Source: Dehalococcoidia bacterium (GTDB lineage: Bacteria > Chloroflexota > Dehalococcoidia > E44-bin15). From it: a stretch of 64,000 bases of DNA. The notes under the pieces are model-generated. The model searched no databases, was not told the DNA's origin, and saw only the letters and a program-made list of their open reading frames with translations. The position numbers were made by a program, and so were the translations under genes. The stretch spans positions 1-64,000 of the forward strand of contig DATKYK010000016.1 of the NCBI GenBank assembly GCA_035528575.1, in the 5' to 3' direction. Below are positions 12,952 through 37,022 of the stretch, piece by piece (position 1 is the first letter of the stretch; every line of letters starts with the position of its first letter).

Positions 12952-13227
12952 CTATTTGTGTATTTTTTCTTTAAAATAGTCTTGTATACTTTTCCCTAGG
13001 TTTTCAGCCTCTTTTCCCACCTCTCTAAACTTGGCTTTGGTTTCGTCATCTTTGACATTGCTTGATAAAATCTTAGCTGACTCAACAACACTTTCCCCGA
13101 AAGCCTTGGCCTTTTCCTTCAGATCAGGGTCGTTAAATATTTGGCTCATGGCATCTCCAAATGATTTAATCATTTCACCAAACTGTTCCGCAGGTTTTTT
13201 CTTATCAACATTTCCTTCTTGTGACAT
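12952..13227 (-). CDS. Small charged helical protein of unknown function
   Basis: This 91-residue protein starts at MSQEGNVDKKK, chosen because GAGAGGGG stands six bases before that ATG; a longer frame reaching 13305 has no such signal. It is rich in Lys, Glu and Ala (FGEMIKSFGDAMSQIF, AKAFGESVVESAK, DYFKEKIHK) and predicted to be mostly amphipathic helix with two related halves. There is no signal peptide and no cysteine. It could be a phasin-like or membrane-surface protein; I do not recognise a named family. It is the last gene downstream of the acyl-CoA operon on the same strand. Confidence 0.65.
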   Translation of the reverse strand: MSQEGNVDKKKPAEQFGEMIKSFGDAMSQIFNDPDLKEKAKAFGESVVESAKILSSNVKDDETKAKFREVGKEAENLGKSIQDYFKEKIHK

Positions 13228-13401
13228 AGTGCCCCTCTCTATTGTTAATCTTTTATACATTACTTCTAGGCTGACTAGCCTGCTTCGAAAAACGCTTAGA
13301 GCCATATCTTCAGTAAACTATTGGCTACATTGTGAACGGGTACACCATTTCTATATTAAAGTAGTGGATAGGTAGATGTTATCAGCCGCTTTACCACCTC
13401 G

Positions 13402-14559
13402 CTAGACGAAGGCTCTAATCCCCAGAACTCTCCTTCCCACGATAAGTTTCTGCATCTGCGTAGTTCCGTCGGGTATGGTTAGAGTCCTAGCATCCCTGAA
13501 GTATCGCTCTATCGGATACTCTTCGGAAAGCCCCATAGCCCCGTGTATCTGGATGGCCTTTGAGGTCGTCCTCACCGCTGCTTCGGTGGCGTAGGCCTTT
13601 GCCAGTGATGCCTGCCAGCGGCATTTCTCCCCCTTATCCAGCATGTCTAGGGCGCGGAACGATAGAAGCCGCCCGGCTTCGGTCTCAGCTATCATATCTA
13701 CGACCATCTCCTGTATCATCTGGAAGCTACCCAGTTGTCGGCCAAACTGTGTCCTGTCCTGCGCGTATTTTATCGAAGCATCTATAGCAGCCTGAGCGAT
13801 ACCTGTCGAGTTAGCTCCCACCATCGCCCGTGACACATCGAAAAAGGCCATTGTCCGCTCGTAGCCTGAGCCCGGGTCTAAAAGATTCGCCTTGGGAACA
13901 GGACAGTCATCAAAAGAAAGCTCCGAGGTAGGGAAGGAACGTAGCCCCAGCTTGTGCAGTTCTCTGGTGGCGAAAGGAGACACATTCCTCTCAACAAGGA
14001 AAAAGGACATCCCTAAAGGCCCGAGTGACTTGTCTGTGGTGGTGAGGATAAAAGCGGCGTCGGCTATACTGCCGTTTGAAATCCACGTCTTTGTCCCGTT
14101 GATGATGTAGTTTTCCCCGTCCAAGATTGCAGTTGTCTCCACACCGGCGACGTCGGAGCCGACATTAGGCTCTGTTATCGCCAGGCAACCTATGTAGTCA
14201 CCAGAAGCAGCGAGAGGTAGCAATCTCTCCTTCTGCTCCGGGTTGCCCGCTTCGTTCAAGAGCCACCAGAAGGCTGCGGCAATGAAAAGTGTTCCGGCAA
14301 GGCTCGCCCAGGCCCTGGCTAACTCTTCGACCAGGATGCCGTTTGTCTTGTGGTCCAATACCGAACCGCCGTACTGTTCGGGCAGAAAGCCCACCAGATA
14401 GCCGAAGGGCATCAACTGTTGAATAAGGGAGACGGCGGTTTCCTTATCAAGCGGGCCTTTCTTCTCCTGCTCATCAACTATAGGCACAATCTCCTTATCA
14501 AGGAATTTGCGGACGTTGGTCTTCAGCATCTGTTGCTCTTCAGTCAGATCGAAGTCCAT
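13402..14559 (-). CDS. Acyl-CoA dehydrogenase
   Basis: This 385-residue FAD enzyme oxidises acyl-CoA at the alpha-beta bond. It has the standard order of helical N-terminus, beta middle domain (CLAITEPNVGSDVAG near 130; FAD-binding TKTWISNGSIAD near 160) and C-terminal helices with RTQFGRQLGSFQ near 275 and the IHGAMGLSEEYPIERYFRD block, whose Glu in EEYP is the position of the catalytic base in medium- and short-chain enzymes. It is the last core gene in the leftward operon ligase, HMGCS-like, thiolase, dehydrogenase. Chain-length preference is not readable. Confidence 0.92.
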   Translation of the reverse strand: MDFDLTEEQQMLKTNVRKFLDKEIVPIVDEQEKKGPLDKETAVSLIQQLMPFGYLVGFLPEQYGGSVLDHKTNGILVEELARAWASLAGTLFIAAAFWWLLNEAGNPEQKERLLPLAASGDYIGCLAITEPNVGSDVAGVETTAILDGENYIINGTKTWISNGSIADAAFILTTTDKSLGPLGMSFFLVERNVSPFATRELHKLGLRSFPTSELSFDDCPVPKANLLDPGSGYERTMAFFDVSRAMVGANSTGIAQAAIDASIKYAQDRTQFGRQLGSFQMIQEMVVDMIAETEAGRLLSFRALDMLDKGEKCRWQASLAKAYATEAAVRTTSKAIQIHGAMGLSEEYPIERYFRDARTLTIPDGTTQMQKLIVGRRVLGIRAFV

Positions 14560-14620: not shown

Positions 14621-15817
14621 CTAAAGCCCCACTAAGAAAACGCTAACAACATTTACCGGGGGAATACCCCCCATGTTATGGGTCAGGCCAAATTTGGGAT
14701 CCTTTATCTGCCGCGGCCCGGCCTTTCCCTGAAGCTGCTTGTACATCTCATACATCATCCGCAGCCCCGAAGCGCCGATGGGATGACCGAAGCACTTGAG
14801 GCCCCCATCAGGCTGACAGGGGATTTTGCCATCTATATCGTAGAATCCTGCCTCGATATCCTCCTTAGCTCGCCCACGTGGCGAGATCCCCAGATCTTCG
14901 TACACGGTAAGCTCTGTGATAGAGAAACAGTCGTGGACCTCCATCATGCTTAGCTCCTCCCGGGGGCTCTTGATCCCTGCCTCACCGTAAGCCTTCTTTG
15001 AGGCTCTGACAGTGGTCTCAACATGAGCGTAGTCCCAGTCGGTGAACATCAACTCCTCTCCGGAACTCACAGAGATCTGTAGCGCCTTAACATATACCGG
15101 GTCAGGCCTGAATTTCTTGGCCAGCTCAGCCCGGGTCACTATGGCCGCCGCGGCGCCATCGCTCACCCCGCAGCAGTCAAATAGACCCAGAGGCCAGGCT
15201 ACGATAGGAGCGTTCATTACCTGTTCGATGGTAATCTCGCGGCGAAGGTGCGCCTTGGGGTTCATAGCCCCGTTGTGATGACTCTTCACCGATATATGGG
15301 CCAGGGCGCGTTTGCCTTCGTCGGGGCTGAGGCCATACTGCGCGAAGTACCTGGTACCCATCATGGCAAACGCACCAGGGGGAGTAAAGTTGGGAAAGGC
15401 GGCCCTCAGCGATGTCCCCATCTGGGTATCGTTTTGAGGAAGACCACCATAGCCTGTGTCCTTAAGCTTCTCCACACCGAGTGCCAAACATATATCATAG
15501 GCCCCGGCGGCAACGGCATAGCAGGCACCCCTTAAAGTCTCCGACCCAGTGGCGCAGAAATTCTCGACTCTCGTTGCCGGAATGAACGGCAGCTTTAACG
15601 TAGCAGCTAGGGGGATGGCGGATTTCCCTACAGAGATTTCCTCATAGCATGTGCCAGACCAGGCAGCATCGATGTCTTTCTTCTCTATACCAGCATCCTC
15701 GATAGCTTCGATAAAGGCCTCGATCATTAAGTCCTGAGGGCCCTTGTCCCATCGTTCTCCAAACTGGCTGCATCCCATCCCGATAATGGCGACCTTGTCC
15801 TTTATCCCTTCAGCCAT
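14621..15817 (-). CDS. SCP2-type thiolase (acetoacetyl-CoA thiolase-like)
   Basis: This 398-residue protein belongs to the sterol-carrier-protein-2/archaeal thiolase group and not the FadA group. The nucleophile is C88 (ENFCATGSET), HDCF near residue 295 and GHPIGASG near 345 supply the active-site His residues, and the C-terminus ends NMGGIPPVNVVSVF. It lies 24 bases downstream of the HMGCS-like/DUF35 fusion. In archaea a thiolase of this group, HMG-CoA synthase and a DUF35 protein form one complex with a shared CoA site. By analogy this thiolase probably docks on the DUF35 part of its neighbour. Confidence 0.88.
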   Translation of the reverse strand: MAEGIKDKVAIIGMGCSQFGERWDKGPQDLMIEAFIEAIEDAGIEKKDIDAAWSGTCYEEISVGKSAIPLAATLKLPFIPATRVENFCATGSETLRGACYAVAAGAYDICLALGVEKLKDTGYGGLPQNDTQMGTSLRAAFPNFTPPGAFAMMGTRYFAQYGLSPDEGKRALAHISVKSHHNGAMNPKAHLRREITIEQVMNAPIVAWPLGLFDCCGVSDGAAAAIVTRAELAKKFRPDPVYVKALQISVSSGEELMFTDWDYAHVETTVRASKKAYGEAGIKSPREELSMMEVHDCFSITELTVYEDLGISPRGRAKEDIEAGFYDIDGKIPCQPDGGLKCFGHPIGASGLRMMYEMYKQLQGKAGPRQIKDPKFGLTHNMGGIPPVNVVSVFLVGL

Positions 15818-15841
15818 AATTCCTCCCTTCTGAATTTGTTT

Positions 15842-17287
15842 CTAAACTCGAATTGGCGTTGCTTTCCAGTAGTAGGCGTGTATACCACGCGTCACATCGT
15901 GGTATTTCCTGCGGAAGCTCATCTCCACCGGCATACCTACCTCAAGCGAATCAAGCTCGCAGTCTATTAGATCAAATAGCCACCTTCCCCCTCCCTGGAA
16001 GTCTACCATGCCGTAGATTGCCGGTGGGCTGGGACTGAAGGCTAAAATGTCTCCGGTATAGGTGAACAGGTGCCCCCTCTTATCGGAGAAGCGATAGCTT
16101 TCCATCTCACCAACAGCTCCACATTTAGGATTGACACATATCTCTTGTGGGGGGTATTGTGGGGTACCACAGCGCTTGCACTTCGATCCGCAGAGGCCCA
16201 GCACCATCCTTCTTTCCCTCCACAGCGTTGATACCTGGGTTGGGGCGACCTCCTCTCCGCGGCCGCCGGTATCTATAGTCATTACCTCACGGAAGGTTAC
16301 ATATTTCTCGTAGCTTCCCAGGTCTTTTTTGGAAGCCAGGTGTCCCTTGATCCCCCTTCTATCCCTAGCCTTCTCTATTTCTCCGGTAACCTCCAGGAAT
16401 AGAGCGTCGCTACCGTTACCGTAGCTGGCAACTAGGATCCTGTCCCCGGGCTTAGCCCCCTCCAGTGCCGCTACCAGTATCTGGAGGGTGTAGGCAGTGC
16501 CGGTATTACCTATGGCGGTAAACATGTGGTCCTGTATTTGATCCGCTTCAAACCCCAGTTTCTTGCCTATGTCTGCATGGGCTCTCACATAGAGGCAGGG
16601 GTAAACCACCTTGGTAAAATCCTTGGGCGTAAGTTTGTATTTATCAAGAAGCCCTGAGATGGCCTCTGAGATAAACTTGCCGTAGCCCTCATCCCTGACC
16701 CATCTATCCTCCCAGGTACGGTTATACCTGTCGGTATCTGCCCTCCAGTTATCCATGAAATCATAGGTGAGAGAATAGGTGCCCTCGACGCTGGCGATCA
16801 CCCCACTATCTCCAAAAAGTATGGCTGCTGCGCCATCACCGTATATCTCCTCCTGAAAGCCGCCCGGTTTCCCCAGACGGCAATCTGATGCACATACCAT
16901 GACGTTCTTCGCTGAACCCGATGATACCGCATCGTAGGCAGAGATGAGAGCACCTGTTCCAGCCTTGATAGATGTGGTGAAGTCAGACGTTCGAATCGCG
17001 GGGCTGAGGTCGAGGGCGGTGGCTATTATCCCCGCATTCTGCCTTTCATTGTAGGGTGTTGTGGTGGTGGCAAAGAAAAGCCCGTCGATCTTTTTCGGCT
17101 CAAGCCCGTTCATACAGTCCATGGCGGAGGCTACTGCCATCGTGATGCTGTCCTCGTCGTAGTTGGCCACTGCCTTCTCACCGGGAAGGAGGGATGCCGG
17201 GTTTAGCCACCCCAGGGCTCCATAGATAGTCATGCGGTTGATGCGGTACAAAGGGATATAAGCACCGTACGAAGTAATTCCTACCAT
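15842..17287 (-). CDS. HMG-CoA synthase-like protein fused to DUF35 (Zn-ribbon/OB), catalytic residues lost
   Basis: Residues 1-345 align with archaeal HMG-CoA synthase from GITSYGAYIPLYRI to NTGTAYTLQIL, and residues 355-481 form a DUF35 domain with a rubredoxin-like zinc ribbon (C370, C373, C384, C389) and an OB fold. All three catalytic positions are changed: the Glu aligns with T75 (FATTTTPYN), the nucleophilic Cys with I107 (TTSIKAGTGAL) and the His with P230 (VVYPCLYV). It therefore cannot run the known synthase chemistry. It may be a scaffold or CoA-binding partner for the adjacent thiolase, or use different chemistry. The alignments were done by eye. Confidence 0.85.
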   Translation of the reverse strand: MVGITSYGAYIPLYRINRMTIYGALGWLNPASLLPGEKAVANYDEDSITMAVASAMDCMNGLEPKKIDGLFFATTTTPYNERQNAGIIATALDLSPAIRTSDFTTSIKAGTGALISAYDAVSSGSAKNVMVCASDCRLGKPGGFQEEIYGDGAAAILFGDSGVIASVEGTYSLTYDFMDNWRADTDRYNRTWEDRWVRDEGYGKFISEAISGLLDKYKLTPKDFTKVVYPCLYVRAHADIGKKLGFEADQIQDHMFTAIGNTGTAYTLQILVAALEGAKPGDRILVASYGNGSDALFLEVTGEIEKARDRRGIKGHLASKKDLGSYEKYVTFREVMTIDTGGRGEEVAPTQVSTLWRERRMVLGLCGSKCKRCGTPQYPPQEICVNPKCGAVGEMESYRFSDKRGHLFTYTGDILAFSPSPPAIYGMVDFQGGGRWLFDLIDCELDSLEVGMPVEMSFRRKYHDVTRGIHAYYWKATPIRV

Positions 17288-17415: not shown

Positions 17416-19008
17416 CTAGTACTTAACGGACTTTCCATACTTATCCCTGAGAACCGTCTTCAGCACCTTACCCGCCGGGTTACGGGGAAGGGCATCCATG
17501 AAATCCACCGACTTAGGCTTCTTGTAGCTGGCCAGATGCTGCTTACAGTACTCCACGACCTCCTCCCCGGTCATGCTCTCTCCTTGCTTACAGACCACAA
17601 TGGCCTTGACCGATTCGCCCCACTCCTCATCGTGAACCCCGATGACGGCACATTCCAGGATCTTGGGGTGACTGAAGAGGACTTCCTCGATCTCGGCCGG
17701 GTAGATATTCTCTCCTCCGCTGACAATCATGTCCTTCTTCCGGTCTACGATATAGAAAAACCCTTCTTCATCCTGCCTCACCAGATCGGTGGAGTGAAAC
17801 CATCCTCCCCTCATGGCTTCCGCGGTGACCTCAGGGTCCTTGTAGTACTCTTTCATTACGGTAGGTCCCCGGTAAATAGCTTCCCCGATTTCTCCCACTG
17901 GCACATCGTTGTCTTTGTCATCTACCACCCGTATCTCGATAAAGGGGAGGGCTCGGCCCACCGATGTCTCACGCCCCTCATATTCGCTGGGAACAAGACC
18001 TGAAACCACCGGGCTCATCTCGGTCTGCCCGAACATGTCGAAGATCTTGACATTAGGGAAGTGCTTAATGATTTGCTTCCGAGTCTCTGTGGGCAAAATC
18101 GCCGCTCCCGTCACCCAAAGTTGGAGGGAACTGGTATCGTATTTCTCCAGATCAGGAAGCTGTAGCAGGAAGAAGGCCATTGCTGGTATCAGGAGAATGG
18201 CATTGATCTTTTCCTTCTCGATGGTCTGCATGATATATTCAGGGTTGAAAACCTCCACCGGCAATACCATGGTGGCACCCAGGAAAAAACTGATCTGGCA
18301 GAAAGCGAAGGCCGCCAGATGGAATACGGGAGGAGCAGCAAAAGCAGTGGCGTTGGTAATATCGGGCATTCCCGGTTCAGAGGCCACGAACATGCTTTCC
18401 AGCATGCACATCACTACTTCATTCTTGTGGGTTAATACAGCACCCTTGGGCCTACCGGTTGTTCCAGCGGTATACATGATGAATACAGGGTCATCTTCTT
18501 CGACCAGAATGAGCGGCTCATCGTCGGTATACTTTGCAATCCAGGTTTCGTAGTGCAGCATGCCCTCCACCGGCTTATCAGTGATGGAAACATAGTTCTT
18601 CACCTTGGGCAGGTCCTTTTGTATGCCACTTACCATTTCCGTAAAAGCCTCCCCCATGATGAAGGCCTCGGCCTCAGAGTGATTTAAAATGTATTTTAGC
18701 TCTTCTCCATGGAGTCGGAAGTTGAGGGGGACAGCCACCCCACCGATCTTCGCTAGTGCAAAGTAGGCCTCCATAAACTGGTTGCAGTTGAAGGCCAGTA
18801 TGGCTACCTTGGACCCCTTATTTATTCCAAGATCCAGCAGGGCGTGGGCCAGCCGGTTCACGCGAGCATTAAACTGCCTGTAGGTCAGGCGCACTTTTCC
18901 ATATATCAGCGCCTCCTTGTCGGGGAACTTGCGCGCGTCACGGGCAATCATTTCCCCCAGAAGAAGCCTTCTTCCCAGGGTTTCCTCTATTGCCTGTTTG
19001 TCTTTCAT
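17416..19008 (-). CDS. Acyl-CoA synthetase (AMP-forming)
   Basis: This 530-residue ANL-superfamily ligase activates a carboxylic acid with ATP and CoA. The AMP-binding loop YTAGTTGRPKGAVLTH is near residue 180, FDMFGQTEMSP near 335, the hinge DRKKDMIVSGGENIYP near 430 and the C-terminal catalytic Lys in RNPAGKVLKT near 515. The start MKDKQAIEETL follows an AGGATAA-type site. It is first in the leftward run with the HMGCS-like protein, thiolase and acyl-CoA dehydrogenase, which fits uptake and activation of a fatty or aromatic acid. Substrate specificity is not readable. Confidence 0.92.
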   Translation of the reverse strand: MKDKQAIEETLGRRLLLGEMIARDARKFPDKEALIYGKVRLTYRQFNARVNRLAHALLDLGINKGSKVAILAFNCNQFMEAYFALAKIGGVAVPLNFRLHGEELKYILNHSEAEAFIMGEAFTEMVSGIQKDLPKVKNYVSITDKPVEGMLHYETWIAKYTDDEPLILVEEDDPVFIMYTAGTTGRPKGAVLTHKNEVVMCMLESMFVASEPGMPDITNATAFAAPPVFHLAAFAFCQISFFLGATMVLPVEVFNPEYIMQTIEKEKINAILLIPAMAFFLLQLPDLEKYDTSSLQLWVTGAAILPTETRKQIIKHFPNVKIFDMFGQTEMSPVVSGLVPSEYEGRETSVGRALPFIEIRVVDDKDNDVPVGEIGEAIYRGPTVMKEYYKDPEVTAEAMRGGWFHSTDLVRQDEEGFFYIVDRKKDMIVSGGENIYPAEIEEVLFSHPKILECAVIGVHDEEWGESVKAIVVCKQGESMTGEEVVEYCKQHLASYKKPKSVDFMDALPRNPAGKVLKTVLRDKYGKSVKY

Positions 19009-22039: not shown

Positions 22040-25000
22040 ATGAAAAAGCAAACCGGGACCAGGGAACAGCTCGCAAACGAACTGGAGAAAATGCGGCAAC
22101 GGATTGCTCATCTGGACAGAGAAGTCACTGTGCATAAGCAGGCAGAGAAGGAGCTGCTAAAAAGTGAGCTAGGATATCGCTTGCTTGCTGAGAACGTGAC
22201 CGATGTCATCTGGACCATGGATATGAACCTGCAGTTTACATACATCAGCCCCTCGGTCACGCGTCAGTATGGCTACAGCGTTGAGGAAGCGATGGCAAGC
22301 CCCATTGAAGCAAATTTGACTCCTTCCTCTTTTAAAGCTGCCATGAAGGTTTTTGAAGAGGAAATGGCCATAGAGAAGATGGAAAAAAAGGACCTGTTCA
22401 GACCGCGGACGCTGGAAGTGGAGCAATACCGCAAGGATGGCTCAACAGTATGGTCAGAGTTAGAAATTGCCTTCCTGCGCGATGCAGATGGCCAAGCTAT
22501 TGGTATAGTCGGAGTATCACGCGACATCACCGAGCGCAAGCGGGCGGAGGAGGCGCTGCGGGAGTCGGAGGAGAAAATACGCAATATATTTGAGTCTATT
22601 TTGGATGCGATTGTCGTCAGTGATTTGGAAGGCCATATTATAGATGAAAATGATGCAGCGCTTCGCATTCAAGGGTACAGTAGTAAGGAAGAGGTTATCG
22701 GGAAAAGTGGCTTTGAATTTATTGCTGAGGAAGACCGCGCTCGGGCTATTCAGGCGGCGATGAAGGCAGCAGAAGAGGGGTATGGTTACATATCGGATGT
22801 TAAGTTTGTGAGCAAGGACGGGATAGAACATGATACTGAGGCAACAGCTTCTCTGGTGCGTGATGCTTCTGGAAACCCAATTGGATTTGTTAGCGTTACG
22901 AGGGACATCACCGAGCACAAGCGGGCGCTGCAGGAGAGCGAGGAGAAGTACCGATTGCTAATTGATAATCTTGTCGAGCCATTAACAGTATATGACTTCA
23001 ATGGCCTTATTTTATTGATAAATGTTACGGGAGCCAATAATCTTGGTTCAATGCCTGAAGATGTTATCGGAAAGTCACTCTACGATTTCTTCCCTGACAC
23101 GGCTGATATTTACGTCGAGAGGGCTCGCCGTATTTTCGAGTCAGGGGTAGGGCTTGAATTTGAGGATGAGGTTCCACTTCCTACCGGCAATAGATGGTTT
23201 TACTCGAATATTCAACCTATCAAAGATACAAGGGGTAAAGTTATTTCTGTTCAGAACATTTCTTATGAGATCACCGAGCGCAAGCGGGCGGAGGAGGCGC
23301 TTAGGCAGAGCGAAGAGAAGCTGCGTTATGTATTTGAATCCATGAGCGATGGGGTAACCGTTGCTGATTTGGAAGGCAAAATTGTAGACATGAATGAGGC
23401 GCAACTTCGCCTATTCGGGTTCAGTAATAAAGAAGAGGGTATAGGGCAAAATGGTTTCGATTATTTTGCCGCGAAAGACCGCACTAGAGCGATTGAAGAT
23501 GCTATGAAGGCAACGGAACTGGGGTATGGCCCTCTACATGAGTATACGTTTCTAAACAAGGATGGGAGAGAATATGATGGTGAGGCGAGCGCCTCTCTGC
23601 TACGTGATAGCTCCGGAAATCCAGTAGGATTCGTCAGCGTTGTTCGAGACATCTCCGAGCGCAGGCGGGTAGAGGAGGCACTTAGGGAGAGCGAGGAGAA
23701 ATATCGAACAGTTATCGATCATTCTATACAGGGCCTGGTTATCGCACAAGGCATTCCCCCTCGTTTAATCTTCGCTAATTCATCCATGGCCCATATTTTG
23801 GGTTACACAGTTGAGGAACTCTTGTCTCTTTCTCCAGAAGAAACAAGGGCACTAGTACACCCAGAAGATCAAAATATATTCTTTCAAAAATATCAAGATC
23901 GCTTGGAAGGGAAATCAGCACCGACTCAATATGAGGTACGAGCTATAAGGAAGGATAAATCAGTTCGTTGGGTAGAAATATTCTCTACACGCATCGAACT
24001 TCAAGGCCAGCCTTCTGTACAGGCTGCCTATGTGGACATCACCGAGCGCAAGCGGGCGGAGGAGGAGCTGAGGGATAGCGAGGAGAAGCTGCGTGGCATA
24101 TTGGATTCCCTGCAGGCTGGAGTTGTAATTATCGATGCAGAAACGCACGTGATTGTAGATGCTAACCCCGCCGCTATCGAGGCTATCGGTTCCACCAAGG
24201 AAATGATTGTTGGTAACGTGTGCCACAAGTTTATCTGTCCAACTGAGAAGGGCAAGTGCCCAATCACCGACCTCGGGAAGACCGTGGATAAATCAGAGCG
24301 TGTGCTTATAAACGCTAGTGGTGAAAACATCCCGATCCTCAAGTCTGTGACTAACACCATACTGAATGGGCGCTTGCATCTGATTGAGAGCTTCGTCGAC
24401 TTCACCGAGCGCAAGCGGGCGGAGAAGGCGCTTAGGGATAGCGAGGAGAAGCTGCATGCGATGTTTGAAGCCATTACCGACGGGATAGTGGTTACCGATT
24501 TGCGGGGTATAATTACGGACGTGAATGATGTAGCAGCTAACATGTCCGGGCTAAGCAGGGAGGAGATGATCGGTCAGGATGGCTTTGCACTAATACCGCG
24601 CGAAGACCGGGATAAGGTAGTAGATCAAGGGAAGAAGATAGTTAGAGGGGAGATCGGCCCGGTAAGGATGGAGCATGAGATATCCCCCAGGATTGGTAGC
24701 GCAAGTACCACTAATCTAGTCCTCGGCACAATGCATGATAGCGACGGAAATCCCACCGGGTTCGTTGCCATTGCCCAGGATATTACCGAGCGCAAGCGGG
24801 CAGAGCAGGAGCGGGAAAGGCTGCTCGAAAAGCTGGAGGACAAATCAGAAGAGCTTGAACAGCTAGTTTTTATTGCCTCGCATGACCTCCGGTCGCCTCT
24901 GGTTAATATCCAGGGTTTTGCCAGGGAGATAGAGCAGTCATTACAACAGTTGAGCCTATCGCTGGAGGAGGAGGATATACCCTCCGCACTGAAAGAAAAG

Positions 25001-25576
25001 CTGGCTGCCCCTATCGGTGAAGATATTACCGATTCGCTTAACTATATCCTCAGCAGCTCCTCCAAGATAGACTCAATGCTGACGGGGCTGCTGAAGGTCT
25101 CACGCCTGGGGCGAGTGACACTTACAATTGAGAAAATCAACATGAAAGACCTGATGGCCGAAGTTGTGGGCAGTTTTGAATTTCAGACAAGGGAGGCAGG
25201 GGTTAAGCTGGAGGTGGGGAGGCTGCCCCAATGCCGGGGCGACAGAGCACAGCTTGACCAGGTCTTCTCCAACCTCATAGATAATGCGTTGAAATTCCTT
25301 GACCCCAAGCGGCCGGGTATCATTCGCATTTCGGGTAGAAAAGAGGACAGGCAAGCTGTATATACCGTGGAGGATAACGGGGTCGGCATTGCGCCAGAGC
25401 ACCATAAAACGGTCTTCCAGATATTTCGACGCTTTGCCCCAATGGACACCCCCGGGGAAGGGTTGGGGCTTAACATCGTGCGCCGTATCCTCGAGCGACA
25501 CGGCGGTAAAATATGGCTCGAATCCGAGCAGGGCAAGGGAAGCAGATTCCACGTCTCTCTGCCAATTAGGGATTAG
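22040..25576 (+). CDS. Multi-PAS sensor histidine kinase
   Basis: This 1178-residue kinase is all cytoplasmic: a short N-terminal coiled coil, seven PAS domains in series, each ending in an ITERKRAE-type linker, then HisKA with H948 (ASHDLRSPLVN) and an HATPase_c domain with the N box NLIDNALKFL, the G1 box DNGVGI and the GEGLGL box. PAS2 and PAS4 are especially alike (GF-[ED]-F/Y, then EDRARAI or KDRTRAI), which suggests recent internal duplication. The start follows GGGAGGCACACGGAA. There is no membrane segment and no response regulator next to it, so it is an orphan kinase sensing an internal signal. Ligands of the PAS domains are unknown. Confidence 0.93.
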   Translation: MKKQTGTREQLANELEKMRQRIAHLDREVTVHKQAEKELLKSELGYRLLAENVTDVIWTMDMNLQFTYISPSVTRQYGYSVEEAMASPIEANLTPSSFKAAMKVFEEEMAIEKMEKKDLFRPRTLEVEQYRKDGSTVWSELEIAFLRDADGQAIGIVGVSRDITERKRAEEALRESEEKIRNIFESILDAIVVSDLEGHIIDENDAALRIQGYSSKEEVIGKSGFEFIAEEDRARAIQAAMKAAEEGYGYISDVKFVSKDGIEHDTEATASLVRDASGNPIGFVSVTRDITEHKRALQESEEKYRLLIDNLVEPLTVYDFNGLILLINVTGANNLGSMPEDVIGKSLYDFFPDTADIYVERARRIFESGVGLEFEDEVPLPTGNRWFYSNIQPIKDTRGKVISVQNISYEITERKRAEEALRQSEEKLRYVFESMSDGVTVADLEGKIVDMNEAQLRLFGFSNKEEGIGQNGFDYFAAKDRTRAIEDAMKATELGYGPLHEYTFLNKDGREYDGEASASLLRDSSGNPVGFVSVVRDISERRRVEEALRESEEKYRTVIDHSIQGLVIAQGIPPRLIFANSSMAHILGYTVEELLSLSPEETRALVHPEDQNIFFQKYQDRLEGKSAPTQYEVRAIRKDKSVRWVEIFSTRIELQGQPSVQAAYVDITERKRAEEELRDSEEKLRGILDSLQAGVVIIDAETHVIVDANPAAIEAIGSTKEMIVGNVCHKFICPTEKGKCPITDLGKTVDKSERVLINASGENIPILKSVTNTILNGRLHLIESFVDFTERKRAEKALRDSEEKLHAMFEAITDGIVVTDLRGIITDVNDVAANMSGLSREEMIGQDGFALIPREDRDKVVDQGKKIVRGEIGPVRMEHEISPRIGSASTTNLVLGTMHDSDGNPTGFVAIAQDITERKRAEQERERLLEKLEDKSEELEQLVFIASHDLRSPLVNIQGFAREIEQSLQQLSLSLEEEDIPSALKEKLAAPIGEDITDSLNYILSSSSKIDSMLTGLLKVSRLGRVTLTIEKINMKDLMAEVVGSFEFQTREAGVKLEVGRLPQCRGDRAQLDQVFSNLIDNALKFLDPKRPGIIRISGRKEDRQAVYTVEDNGVGIAPEHHKTVFQIFRRFAPMDTPGEGLGLNIVRRILERHGGKIWLESEQGKGSRFHVSLPIRD

Positions 25577-35333: not shown

Positions 35334-35747
35334 CTAACAAGCTTTGAAGGCTACATAGTATCTTTTACCTTCTTCTTGCTCCAGGAAGTCCACCGTTAGA
35401 GGGGTTCCTACTTTAACATTCTCCGGCTTCTTGGCGTCGAGTCCTAGAATCCGCCCGCTTATCTTCAGACCCTCATCCAGTTCCACAACTCCTACCAGAT
35501 AAGGGTTATCCCTATCATATCCCTCTTCTATGGTCCAGCTCTGGCCCACGGCGATGGAGGTGAAGGCTGCAAGCTTGCCCTTGCCCTTCATCTCCACCCA
35601 TTCCATGTCATTACCGTGGCACTTGGCACAGATGGAATGCGGTGGTAGATACATTGCTTGACATCCCTTGCACCTCGAAGCCATCAGTTTCCTCTCAGCG
35701 AGAAACTGATAGAATGAGGCGCTGTTAAAATCTCTCTCCTCAGCCAA
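35334..35747 (-). CDS. DUF35 Zn-ribbon/OB-fold protein, thiolase partner
   Basis: This 137-residue protein has an N-terminal helix, a zinc ribbon (C26, C29, C40, C43) and an OB fold with the GKLAAFTSI...YLVGVVELDEG pattern typical of DUF35. Three bases separate it from the upstream thiolase, so the two are translated together. DUF35 proteins are subunits of archaeal thiolase/HMGCS complexes and of BbsAB-type thiolases, where they help bind CoA. It is the free-standing counterpart of the domain fused to the HMGCS-like protein at 15842. Confidence 0.9.
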   Translation of the reverse strand: MAEERDFNSASFYQFLAERKLMASRCKGCQAMYLPPHSICAKCHGNDMEWVEMKGKGKLAAFTSIAVGQSWTIEEGYDRDNPYLVGVVELDEGLKISGRILGLDAKKPENVKVGTPLTVDFLEQEEGKRYYVAFKAC

Positions 35748-35750
35748 GGG

Positions 35751-37022
35751 CTACCTCCTCTGATAAATGTGAACTACACAGGTGCCGCCGGTAGCACCGA
35801 CGTTGTGAGTCAAGGCGAGTGTAATGTCCTTTCCTGGGACCTGCCTGGGACCGGCTTCTCCCCTCATCTGATGCCATATCTCCACCACTTGCCCTACCCC
35901 GGAGGCTCCTACGGGGTGTCCCTTGGATTTGAGTCCCCCGGAGGTATTAATGGGTTTAGCCCCATCGCGGGCCGTTATACCCTGCTCTGTTGCGACAAAT
36001 GCCTCGCCAGGCTTGAAGAATCCCAGGTCTTCAAGTGCCACCAGTTCGGCAATGGTAAAGCAATCATGGACCTCGGCAATCTGAATATCTTCAGGTTTCA
36101 CCCCCGCCATCTGGTAAGCCTGCTTGGCTGCCGTTCTTGCCGCCAGTATGGATGTCAAGTCTTTCCGTTCGTGAAGGGCGTGGTCGCTTCCCTGGCCAGT
36201 ACCGACGATATATATGGGGTCAAGGGAAAAGTCCTTTGCCAGTTCATCAGCGACGAGTAGAAGACAGGCAGCCCCATCGGTTATAGGTGAGCAGTCAAAC
36301 AGTCTCATTGGCCAGGCAACCACCGGGTTGGCCCTGGGGTCTTTGAGGAAATCAATCTCGTCACGCCATCCGGGCACCGGTTCACCCTTCTGTTTCGCCT
36401 TTTCGATCCTCGAATTCATGATATCTCTTATGGATTTATTAAACTGGGCTTTTGGATTCAGTGCCCCGTTTATATGGTTTTTAATACCCACTTTCATAAA
36501 GTGTTCAACTCTGGCGCCATATTTTTCCATGTATGCAGTAGCCATAGCAGCGTATAGCCCTGGGAAAGTAAAACCACAGGAACTCTCATAGACCGCGTCG
36601 CTGGCAGAAGCCAGCGTATCGGTTACCCTTTCTGTCGGCAGGTTGGTCATTTTTTCAGTTCCGCTGACTAGAACAATGTCATAAATCCCCGAAGCTATTG
36701 CCAGTATTCCCTCCCGTATGGCAACGCCACCGCTGGCGCAGGCATCCTCCACGCGGGTAGCCGGTTTTGGAACCAGCCCCACCCAATCTGCCATAATTGG
36801 AGCAACATGCCCCTGCCCCTCGAAGAGGTCGCTGGAGTAATTGCCTACATAGAGGGCTTCTATATCCTCGACGTCTAACCCTTTATCCACTGATTCGGTC
36901 ATTGCATTGAATGCATCAACAAATAAATCGCGGCTGGTCTTGTCAGCGAAAGCGCCGAATTTCGACATTCCCGCCCCCACCAGGGCTACACCCCTTCCCA
37001 GCTTTCGTTCCCTCCGGCTCAT
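35751..37022 (-). CDS. SCP2-type thiolase
   Basis: This 423-residue thiolase has the nucleophile C95 (VEDACASGGVA), the HDCF block and KGHPVGASG near the C-terminus and ends in NVGATGGTCVVHIY. It is paralogous to the thiolase at 14621 but has an insert near residue 215 (KAKQKGEPVPGWRDEIDF). Together with the DUF35 gene it forms a two-subunit module like BbsAB of anaerobic toluene degradation; the acyl substrate is not readable. An AAGGAGGGAGC site precedes the ATG. Confidence 0.88.
   Translation of the reverse strand: MSRRERKLGRGVALVGAGMSKFGAFADKTSRDLFVDAFNAMTESVDKGLDVEDIEALYVGNYSSDLFEGQGHVAPIMADWVGLVPKPATRVEDACASGGVAIREGILAIASGIYDIVLVSGTEKMTNLPTERVTDTLASASDAVYESSCGFTFPGLYAAMATAYMEKYGARVEHFMKVGIKNHINGALNPKAQFNKSIRDIMNSRIEKAKQKGEPVPGWRDEIDFLKDPRANPVVAWPMRLFDCSPITDGAACLLLVADELAKDFSLDPIYIVGTGQGSDHALHERKDLTSILAARTAAKQAYQMAGVKPEDIQIAEVHDCFTIAELVALEDLGFFKPGEAFVATEQGITARDGAKPINTSGGLKSKGHPVGASGVGQVVEIWHQMRGEAGPRQVPGKDITLALTHNVGATGGTCVVHIYQRR

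Follow-up and report, generated by a model that had tools for sequence, protein, structure and literature searches.

A catalytically dead HMG-CoA-synthase-like/DUF35 fusion as the likely scaffold of a catabolic SCP2-type thiolase

The window analysed here, a stretch of 64,000 nucleotides, is contig C16 of a Dehalococcoidia MAG of 2.3 Mb (96% complete). It contains a compact run of genes on the minus strand, given here in the order of transcription:

17416-19008, minus strand: acyl-CoA ligase (AMP-binding; Pfam), upstream of the fusion in the same gene run
15842-17287, minus strand: pseudo-HMG-CoA-synthase/DUF35 fusion, 481 aa (ORF, Pfam)
14621-15817, minus strand: SCP2-type thiolase, 398 aa, intact active site (ORF, Pfam, profile and residue comparison)
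13402-14559, minus strand: acyl-CoA dehydrogenase (Pfam), downstream of the thiolase in the same gene run
12952-13305, minus strand: small ORF of 117 aa, last in the same gene run

The fusion ORF lies upstream of the thiolase ORF with a gap of 24 bp, and the coordinates given for the pair in an earlier note on this DNA were right. The order ligase, fusion, thiolase and acyl-CoA dehydrogenase recurs in two loci of relatives (L036 and L037). The small ORF belongs to no Pfam family and has no relative near the other fusions examined; its product looks charged and helix-rich.

The fusion protein is an archaeal-type HMG-CoA-synthase fold joined to a zinc-ribbon/OB (DUF35) domain, with the following parts and sites:

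16268-17287, minus strand: pseudo-HMG-CoA-synthase domain, residues 1-340 (match to 6esq_I and PhlA, AF2, Foldseek)
16229-16267, minus strand: short interdomain linker, residues 341-353 (13 residues; AF2 pLDDT minimum ~68)
15845-16228, minus strand: zinc-ribbon/OB (DUF35) domain, residues 354-481 (Pfam and match to 6esq_E)
16121-16180, minus strand: zinc-ribbon cysteines C370, C373, C384 and C389 (invariant, 76 sequences)
17063-17065, minus strand: T75 at the catalytic Glu position (Thr in 87/94 homologues, Glu in 0)
16967-16969, minus strand: I107 at the catalytic Cys position (mostly Leu, Gln, Ile or Val; Cys in 0/94)
16598-16600, minus strand: P230 at the catalytic His position (Pro in 69/94, His in 0)

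Pfam finds the KAS-III/HMGCS C-terminal domain (residues 214-292), zf-ChsH2 (367-391) and OB_ChsH2_C (402-459) in a single chain, and phmmer aligns residues 2-334 with the HMG-CoA synthase (HMGCS) of M. thermolithotrophicus (6esq_I, E 3e-34) and residues 354-479 with the DUF35 subunit of the same organism (6esq_E, E 6e-16), which bears out the covalent fusion described earlier. The closest solved structures by sequence are PhlA proteins. An AlphaFold2 model based on a 76-sequence alignment reached a pLDDT of 93.5 and a pTM of 0.94, superseding a ten-sequence run with a pLDDT of 66, and Foldseek superimposed this model on 6esq_I with a TM of 0.92 at 1.7 A.

The Glu-Cys-His triad of the synthase is lost. 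As the earlier note had read them, these residues fall on T75, I107 and P230, both in the alignment with the structurally known archaeal synthase 6esq_I, which does not recover the triad, and in a MAFFT alignment with 94 homologues, none of which has a catalytic residue at any triad position (6esq_I and PhlA were taken as references from phmmer alignments and comprise the aligned region only). The Cys column holds Leu (37 homologues), Gln (25), Ile (10) and Val (7), while Thr and Met also occur. No triad-keeping homologue was found among the 94 relatives, 11 divergent class members or 13 plasmid-borne fused members; the divergent members have lost Glu and Cys too, and the plasmid-borne ones (from Pseudomonadota, Actinomycetota and haloarchaea) all lack Glu and Cys, two of them keeping His. 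As a positive control, an unfused synthase of an archaeal MAG (L148) keeps E/C/H, while T/T/S is found in the fused copy from that MAG. A conserved fold with a dead active site, as had been proposed, is thus what the model, the superposition and the alignment return. Residues W192, E193, R195, G201 and Y202 are nearly invariant in the 76 sequences, and the W192-E193-x-R195 motif is absent from archaeal synthases; together with Thr at the Glu position in 93% of the homologues, this motif indicates that the dead site is not random and could represent a repurposed pocket.

As an HMG-CoA synthase enzyme the fusion was rejected, given that the triad is gone and that no HMG-CoA reductase was found in the host genome (96% complete); without this reductase, a role of the fusion in the mevalonate pathway falls away. 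The fusion nevertheless passes the NCBIfam equivalog NF003274, which ignores the triad, by 3 bits (247.0, cut-off 244), and scores far below the cut-off of TIGR00748 (187.5 against 353.35). A PhlA-like protein (L116) also passes NF003274 with 389. Since this model accepts a dead protein and a PhlA-like protein, automatic annotation can overstate mevalonate capacity.

The adjoining thiolase, described earlier as intact, does retain its catalytic residues:

15554-15556, minus strand: thiolase nucleophile C88 (invariant in ten own paralogues)
14927-14935, minus strand: thiolase HDC motif with H295 and C297 (HDCF; ten paralogues and 13/13 plasmid-borne relatives)
14783-14785, minus strand: thiolase H345 of GHP (ten paralogues and plasmid-borne relatives)

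Because Cys88, HDCF and GHP are kept, the partners are by their residues thiolases and not aldolases of the Ltp2/Sal type. Against the BbsB model the window thiolase scores 157 (cut-off 750), and the host genome contains just two high-scoring canonical thiolases. The linkage to the fusion is conserved, in line with what the earlier note had expected of relatives. All ten fusions of the host genome are directly followed by a thiolase, these partners being 49-65% identical to that of the window, whereas all other thiolases in the examined loci reach at most 34%. Distances among the ten host pairs correlate between fusion and thiolase with a mirror-tree r of 0.92, a value that 0 of 20000 permutations equalled or exceeded. 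A thiolase lies within 300 nt in 69 of the 73 relatives with room downstream, which were picked by similarity and hence are not independent of one another; the four that fail this rule show a gap of 306 nt, intervening genes, a contig end and a broken reading frame, respectively. Adjacency alone is no proof of contact, and duplication of the tandem pair could give the same adjacency and correlation.

The dead fusion is neither a lone oddity nor a product of decay, as evidenced by the ten adjacent and co-diversified pairs, by the selection acting on the dead domain (dN/dS 0.05-0.11 in four pairwise comparisons, with dS near saturation in two) and by a spread over several phyla. The other nine fusions of the host share 43-65% identity with the copy in the window. 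The family is present in 67 of 196 genomes of the same class, several of which hold eight or more copies, and its members occur in Chloroflexota, Desulfobacterota, Pseudomonadota, Actinomycetota and some archaea. DUF35 is present in the same chain in 83 of 84 synthase-like ORFs of relatives. Among the many intact copies, two are possible pseudogenes or assembly errors, namely G065:C1:486562-488007, with an in-frame TAG, and L082 8001-9824, where the reading frame is interrupted near the start of the SDR part.

In the best trees PhlA groups with archaeal HMGCS (support 99) and not with the fusions, which would suit separate triad losses in PhlA and the fusions; the AU test, however, does not reject a single all-dead clade (p-AU 0.295), nor does it reject that the fusion arose only once (p-AU 0.464). 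The archaeal fusions (Methanoliparum, CSMAG_2293) nest among Dehalococcoidia sequences with a support of 95, and this position suggests that they were acquired from bacteria. Archaea need an HMG-CoA synthase; in the MAG of Candidatus Methanoliparum (genome G060, locus L055), the fused pseudo-synthase is present and an unfused archaeal HMG-CoA synthase was not detected with the same model. Our search of the literature for the fusion in Desulfobacterota, Dehalococcoidia or Methanoliparum found nothing relevant.

The gene neighbourhoods are catabolic, and the acyl-CoA degradation context proposed earlier agrees both with the ligase and acyl-CoA dehydrogenase of the window's run and with the neighbours in relatives. 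Among loci of at least 8 kb (n=59), an acyl-CoA dehydrogenase occurs in 30 and SDR homology in 36, fused SDRs being counted. Cassettes of Pseudomonadota read SDR-MaoC-fusion-thiolase, to which Variovorax adds a neighbouring acyl-CoA dehydrogenase and CoA-transferase. The host paralogues neighbour AtuA, enoyl-CoA hydratase, ADP-forming ligase, methylmalonyl-CoA mutase, type III CoA-transferase and several acyl-CoA dehydrogenases. The most divergent of them (L009 2088-8901) sits beside AtuA, an AtuA ferredoxin-like protein, an ADP-forming acyl-CoA ligase, an enoyl-CoA hydratase and an acyl-CoA dehydrogenase; the substrate of this cassette may accordingly be an acyclic terpenoid or branched.

In 27 relatives, mostly Desulfobacterota, the fusion chain runs on into an SDR and reaches up to ~910-925 aa, with an SCP2 domain after the SDR in complete long forms (Pfam; two complete forms scanned). 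This SDR matches the (3R)-hydroxyacyl-CoA dehydrogenase of MFE-2 from yeast (2e-127) and human 17-beta-HSD4 (3e-96), and both SDR motifs (TGxGxGLG and YxxxK) are kept in 27/27 long forms. The presence of an MFE-2-type SDR and SCP2 in the same polypeptide ties the fusion system of Desulfobacterota to beta-oxidation; for the lineage of the window, where the SDR is not part of the fusion chain, the MFE-2 link is extrapolated from relatives. Gene neighbours and long forms together place the fusion system in beta-oxidation, which is probably partly R-specific and probably serves varied substrates. In the Desulfobacterota loci L069 (6611-7930), L074 (984-2312) and L093 (2-1207), a second, separate MFE-2-type SDR with SCP2 lies directly upstream of the fusion, even where the fusion itself carries SDR-SCP2.

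Several known systems share parts of this architecture. The archaeal thiolase/HMGCS/DUF35 complex (6ESQ) has the three homologous components, the same fold (TM 0.92) and a thiolase with HDCF, but its synthase keeps Glu82, Cys114 and His, serves mevalonate and forms one of three separate chains. PhlACB/CsATase (PDB 5M3K, 5MG5, 9SKH) and MucABC (9VBO) likewise combine an HMGCS-like subunit, DUF35 and an active thiolase subunit, and in PhlA the catalytic Cys and Glu are shown to be lost, their positions being taken by Gly115 and Cys83, respectively (PMC6392133). Only PhlC acts in PhlACB, yet all three subunits must be co-expressed; PhlA is needed in the complex and takes no part in the acyl transfer step (PMC6392133). 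PhlACB differs from the fusion system in that DUF35 is a separate protein, the thiolase is of the PhlC type and the role is biosynthetic. The BbsAB benzoylsuccinyl-CoA thiolase (7PXP) is, like the window pair, a catabolic SCP2-type thiolase with a zinc-finger DUF35 partner, but lacks an HMGCS-like component. In the Ltp2-ChsH2 and Sal-Shy aldolases a thiolase fold is also clamped by the DUF35 domain of another protein; there, however, DUF35 is joined with a MaoC hydratase, and the retro-aldol site of the thiolase-fold enzyme is of the YDxY type. Peroxisomal MFE-2 (17-beta-HSD4) and SCPx share the (3R)-hydroxyacyl-CoA dehydrogenase and SCP2 domain with the long forms, which differ in lacking a hydratase-2 domain, in the pseudo-HMGCS-DUF35 in front and in having the thiolase on a separate chain. 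Already in 2010, the paper on SSO2064 described fusions in which DUF35 is joined to members of the thiolase superfamily, to SDRs and to SCP2, and it regarded PhlA as inactive (PMC2954200). A dead HMGCS-like subunit is therefore known in kind from PhlA; what is new is the breadth of the fusion, its catabolic role and its linkage to MFE-2/SCP2. By analogy, the fusion system most likely corresponds to PhlA-PhlB of the phloroglucinol acylase, but in fused form and with a catabolic role.

With a probability of roughly 0.7, we consider the fusion to be a catalytically dead synthase fold that is kept as structural core and CoA-docking scaffold of a thiolase complex, in which the thiolase does the chemistry. 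This reading draws on the lost triad (94 of 94 homologues), the intact residues of the thiolase, the adjacent and co-diversified pairs, purifying selection, the SDR/SCP2 fusions and the precedent of PhlACB, and it was one of two options that the earlier note had offered; the other, a new C-C bond chemistry, found no support, and on present evidence there is no new chemistry. We infer a physical complex in which the fusion would dimerise via its inactive synthase fold, by analogy with 6ESQ and PhlACB, and in which the attached zinc-ribbon/OB domain would clamp the dimer of the neighbouring SCP2-type thiolase, thereby shaping the thiolase pocket and the entrance for CoA and acyl groups. The thiolase (Cys88, HDCF, GHP) would then catalyse the CoA-dependent cleavage of 3-ketoacyl-CoAs in the beta-oxidation of bulky, branched or alicyclic acids, the candidate substrates most likely being awkward fatty, steroid-like or hydrocarbon-derived acids. 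Fusing DUF35 to the pseudo-synthase would fix a 1:1 stoichiometry, and in Desulfobacterota the scaffold may add the preceding enzyme, the MFE-2-type (3R)-hydroxyacyl-CoA dehydrogenase, and the SCP2 lipid carrier to yield a metabolon.

An alternative is that the synthase fold, having lost HMG-CoA chemistry, gained another activity, for example as a hydrolase, decarboxylase or isomerase on a CoA ester passed on by the thiolase. Thr occupies the Glu site in 87 of 94 homologues, the five residues from W192 to Y202 named above are nearly invariant under strong purifying selection, and Gln replaces Cys in 25 of 94. In ketosynthases, Gln in place of Cys can give KSQ-type decarboxylases, and their decarboxylation needs the catalytic His. 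Here all 25 Gln-bearing members have Pro at the His site, on which account a KSQ-type decarboxylase was rejected; moreover, the residue at the Cys position varies among Leu, Gln, Ile, Val, Thr and Met, unlike in a catalytic site, and the necessity of PhlA without a role in acyl transfer (PMC6392133) also argues for structure over catalysis. We regard such a gained activity as unlikely, and as slightly less likely still the specific version in which the pseudo-synthase, as a second active site, would act on the acyl-CoA that the thiolase holds or has released, so that the pair would form a two-step enzyme in at least six phyla.

That the whole complex is biosynthetic, an acylase or Claisen enzyme like PhlACB, would suit its nearest solved structures, the PhlA proteins. 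This is very unlikely in view of neighbours that comprise acyl-CoA ligases, acyl-CoA dehydrogenases, hydratases, CoA-transferases, methylmalonyl-CoA mutase and SDRs with no type III PKS, and in view of the Priestia PhlC-type thiolase, which lacks the HDCF that 13/13 fused-type partners have. A shade more remote is a partner thiolase that acts as a retro-aldolase of the Ltp2/Sal kind and splits acetyl- or propionyl-CoA off 3-hydroxy side chains, DUF35 being the clamp in its usual role: the DUF35-thiolase-fold architecture is the same (PMC12329534) and one relative sits in a steroid cluster, but Sal has a YDCY motif and Ltp2 paired tyrosines (PMC12329534), as opposed to HDCF, Cys88 and GHP here. 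Finally, the lost triad and the in-frame stop in one relative's copy might point to a decaying or regulatory relic without structural role, which is extremely improbable considering a dN/dS of 0.05-0.11, ten copies in one genome and carriage by 67 of 196 genomes of the class.

The scaffold reading bears on a puzzling case in the literature. The estradiol (edc) cluster of Caenibius (Novosphingobium) tardaugens holds an 'HMG-CoA synthase' (EGO55_13555) that, according to the authors, might not condense, and that was left unplaced, since an anabolic synthase did not fit such a cluster (PMC7793797). In the colinear cluster on plasmid p3 of Novosphingobium ES2-1, the corresponding gene encodes a DUF35 fusion of 467 aa that has T/L/S at the triad positions and neighbours an intact thiolase; read via this gene, the fusion family would explain the 'HMG-CoA synthase' of the estradiol cluster. 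In catabolic operons and on catabolic plasmids, members of the family are labelled HMG-CoA synthase, KAS III or 'OB-fold protein', despite lacking the residues that make HMG-CoA, and a dead scaffold renders EGO55_13555 and many similar genes interpretable. The fusion system is real, widespread and prone to misnaming by automatic annotation, and it is a new catabolic, fused variant of a kind of complex already known. It also suggests one way in which bacteria build beta-oxidation metabolons, with the MFE-2 and SCP2 parts known from peroxisomes placed on the same scaffold.

Elsewhere in the window, a separate small DUF35 gene adjoins a more distant SCP2-type thiolase (34% identical) at 35385-37022 on the minus strand, forming a two-gene pair that resembles BbsAB or Ltp2, and similar pairs of DUF35 and SCP2-type thiolase occur on the host contigs C24, C31, C34 and C45. 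At 22040-25576 on the plus strand, the window further encodes a histidine kinase of 1178 aa with apparently many PAS repeats in a row, as judged from reading the sequence.
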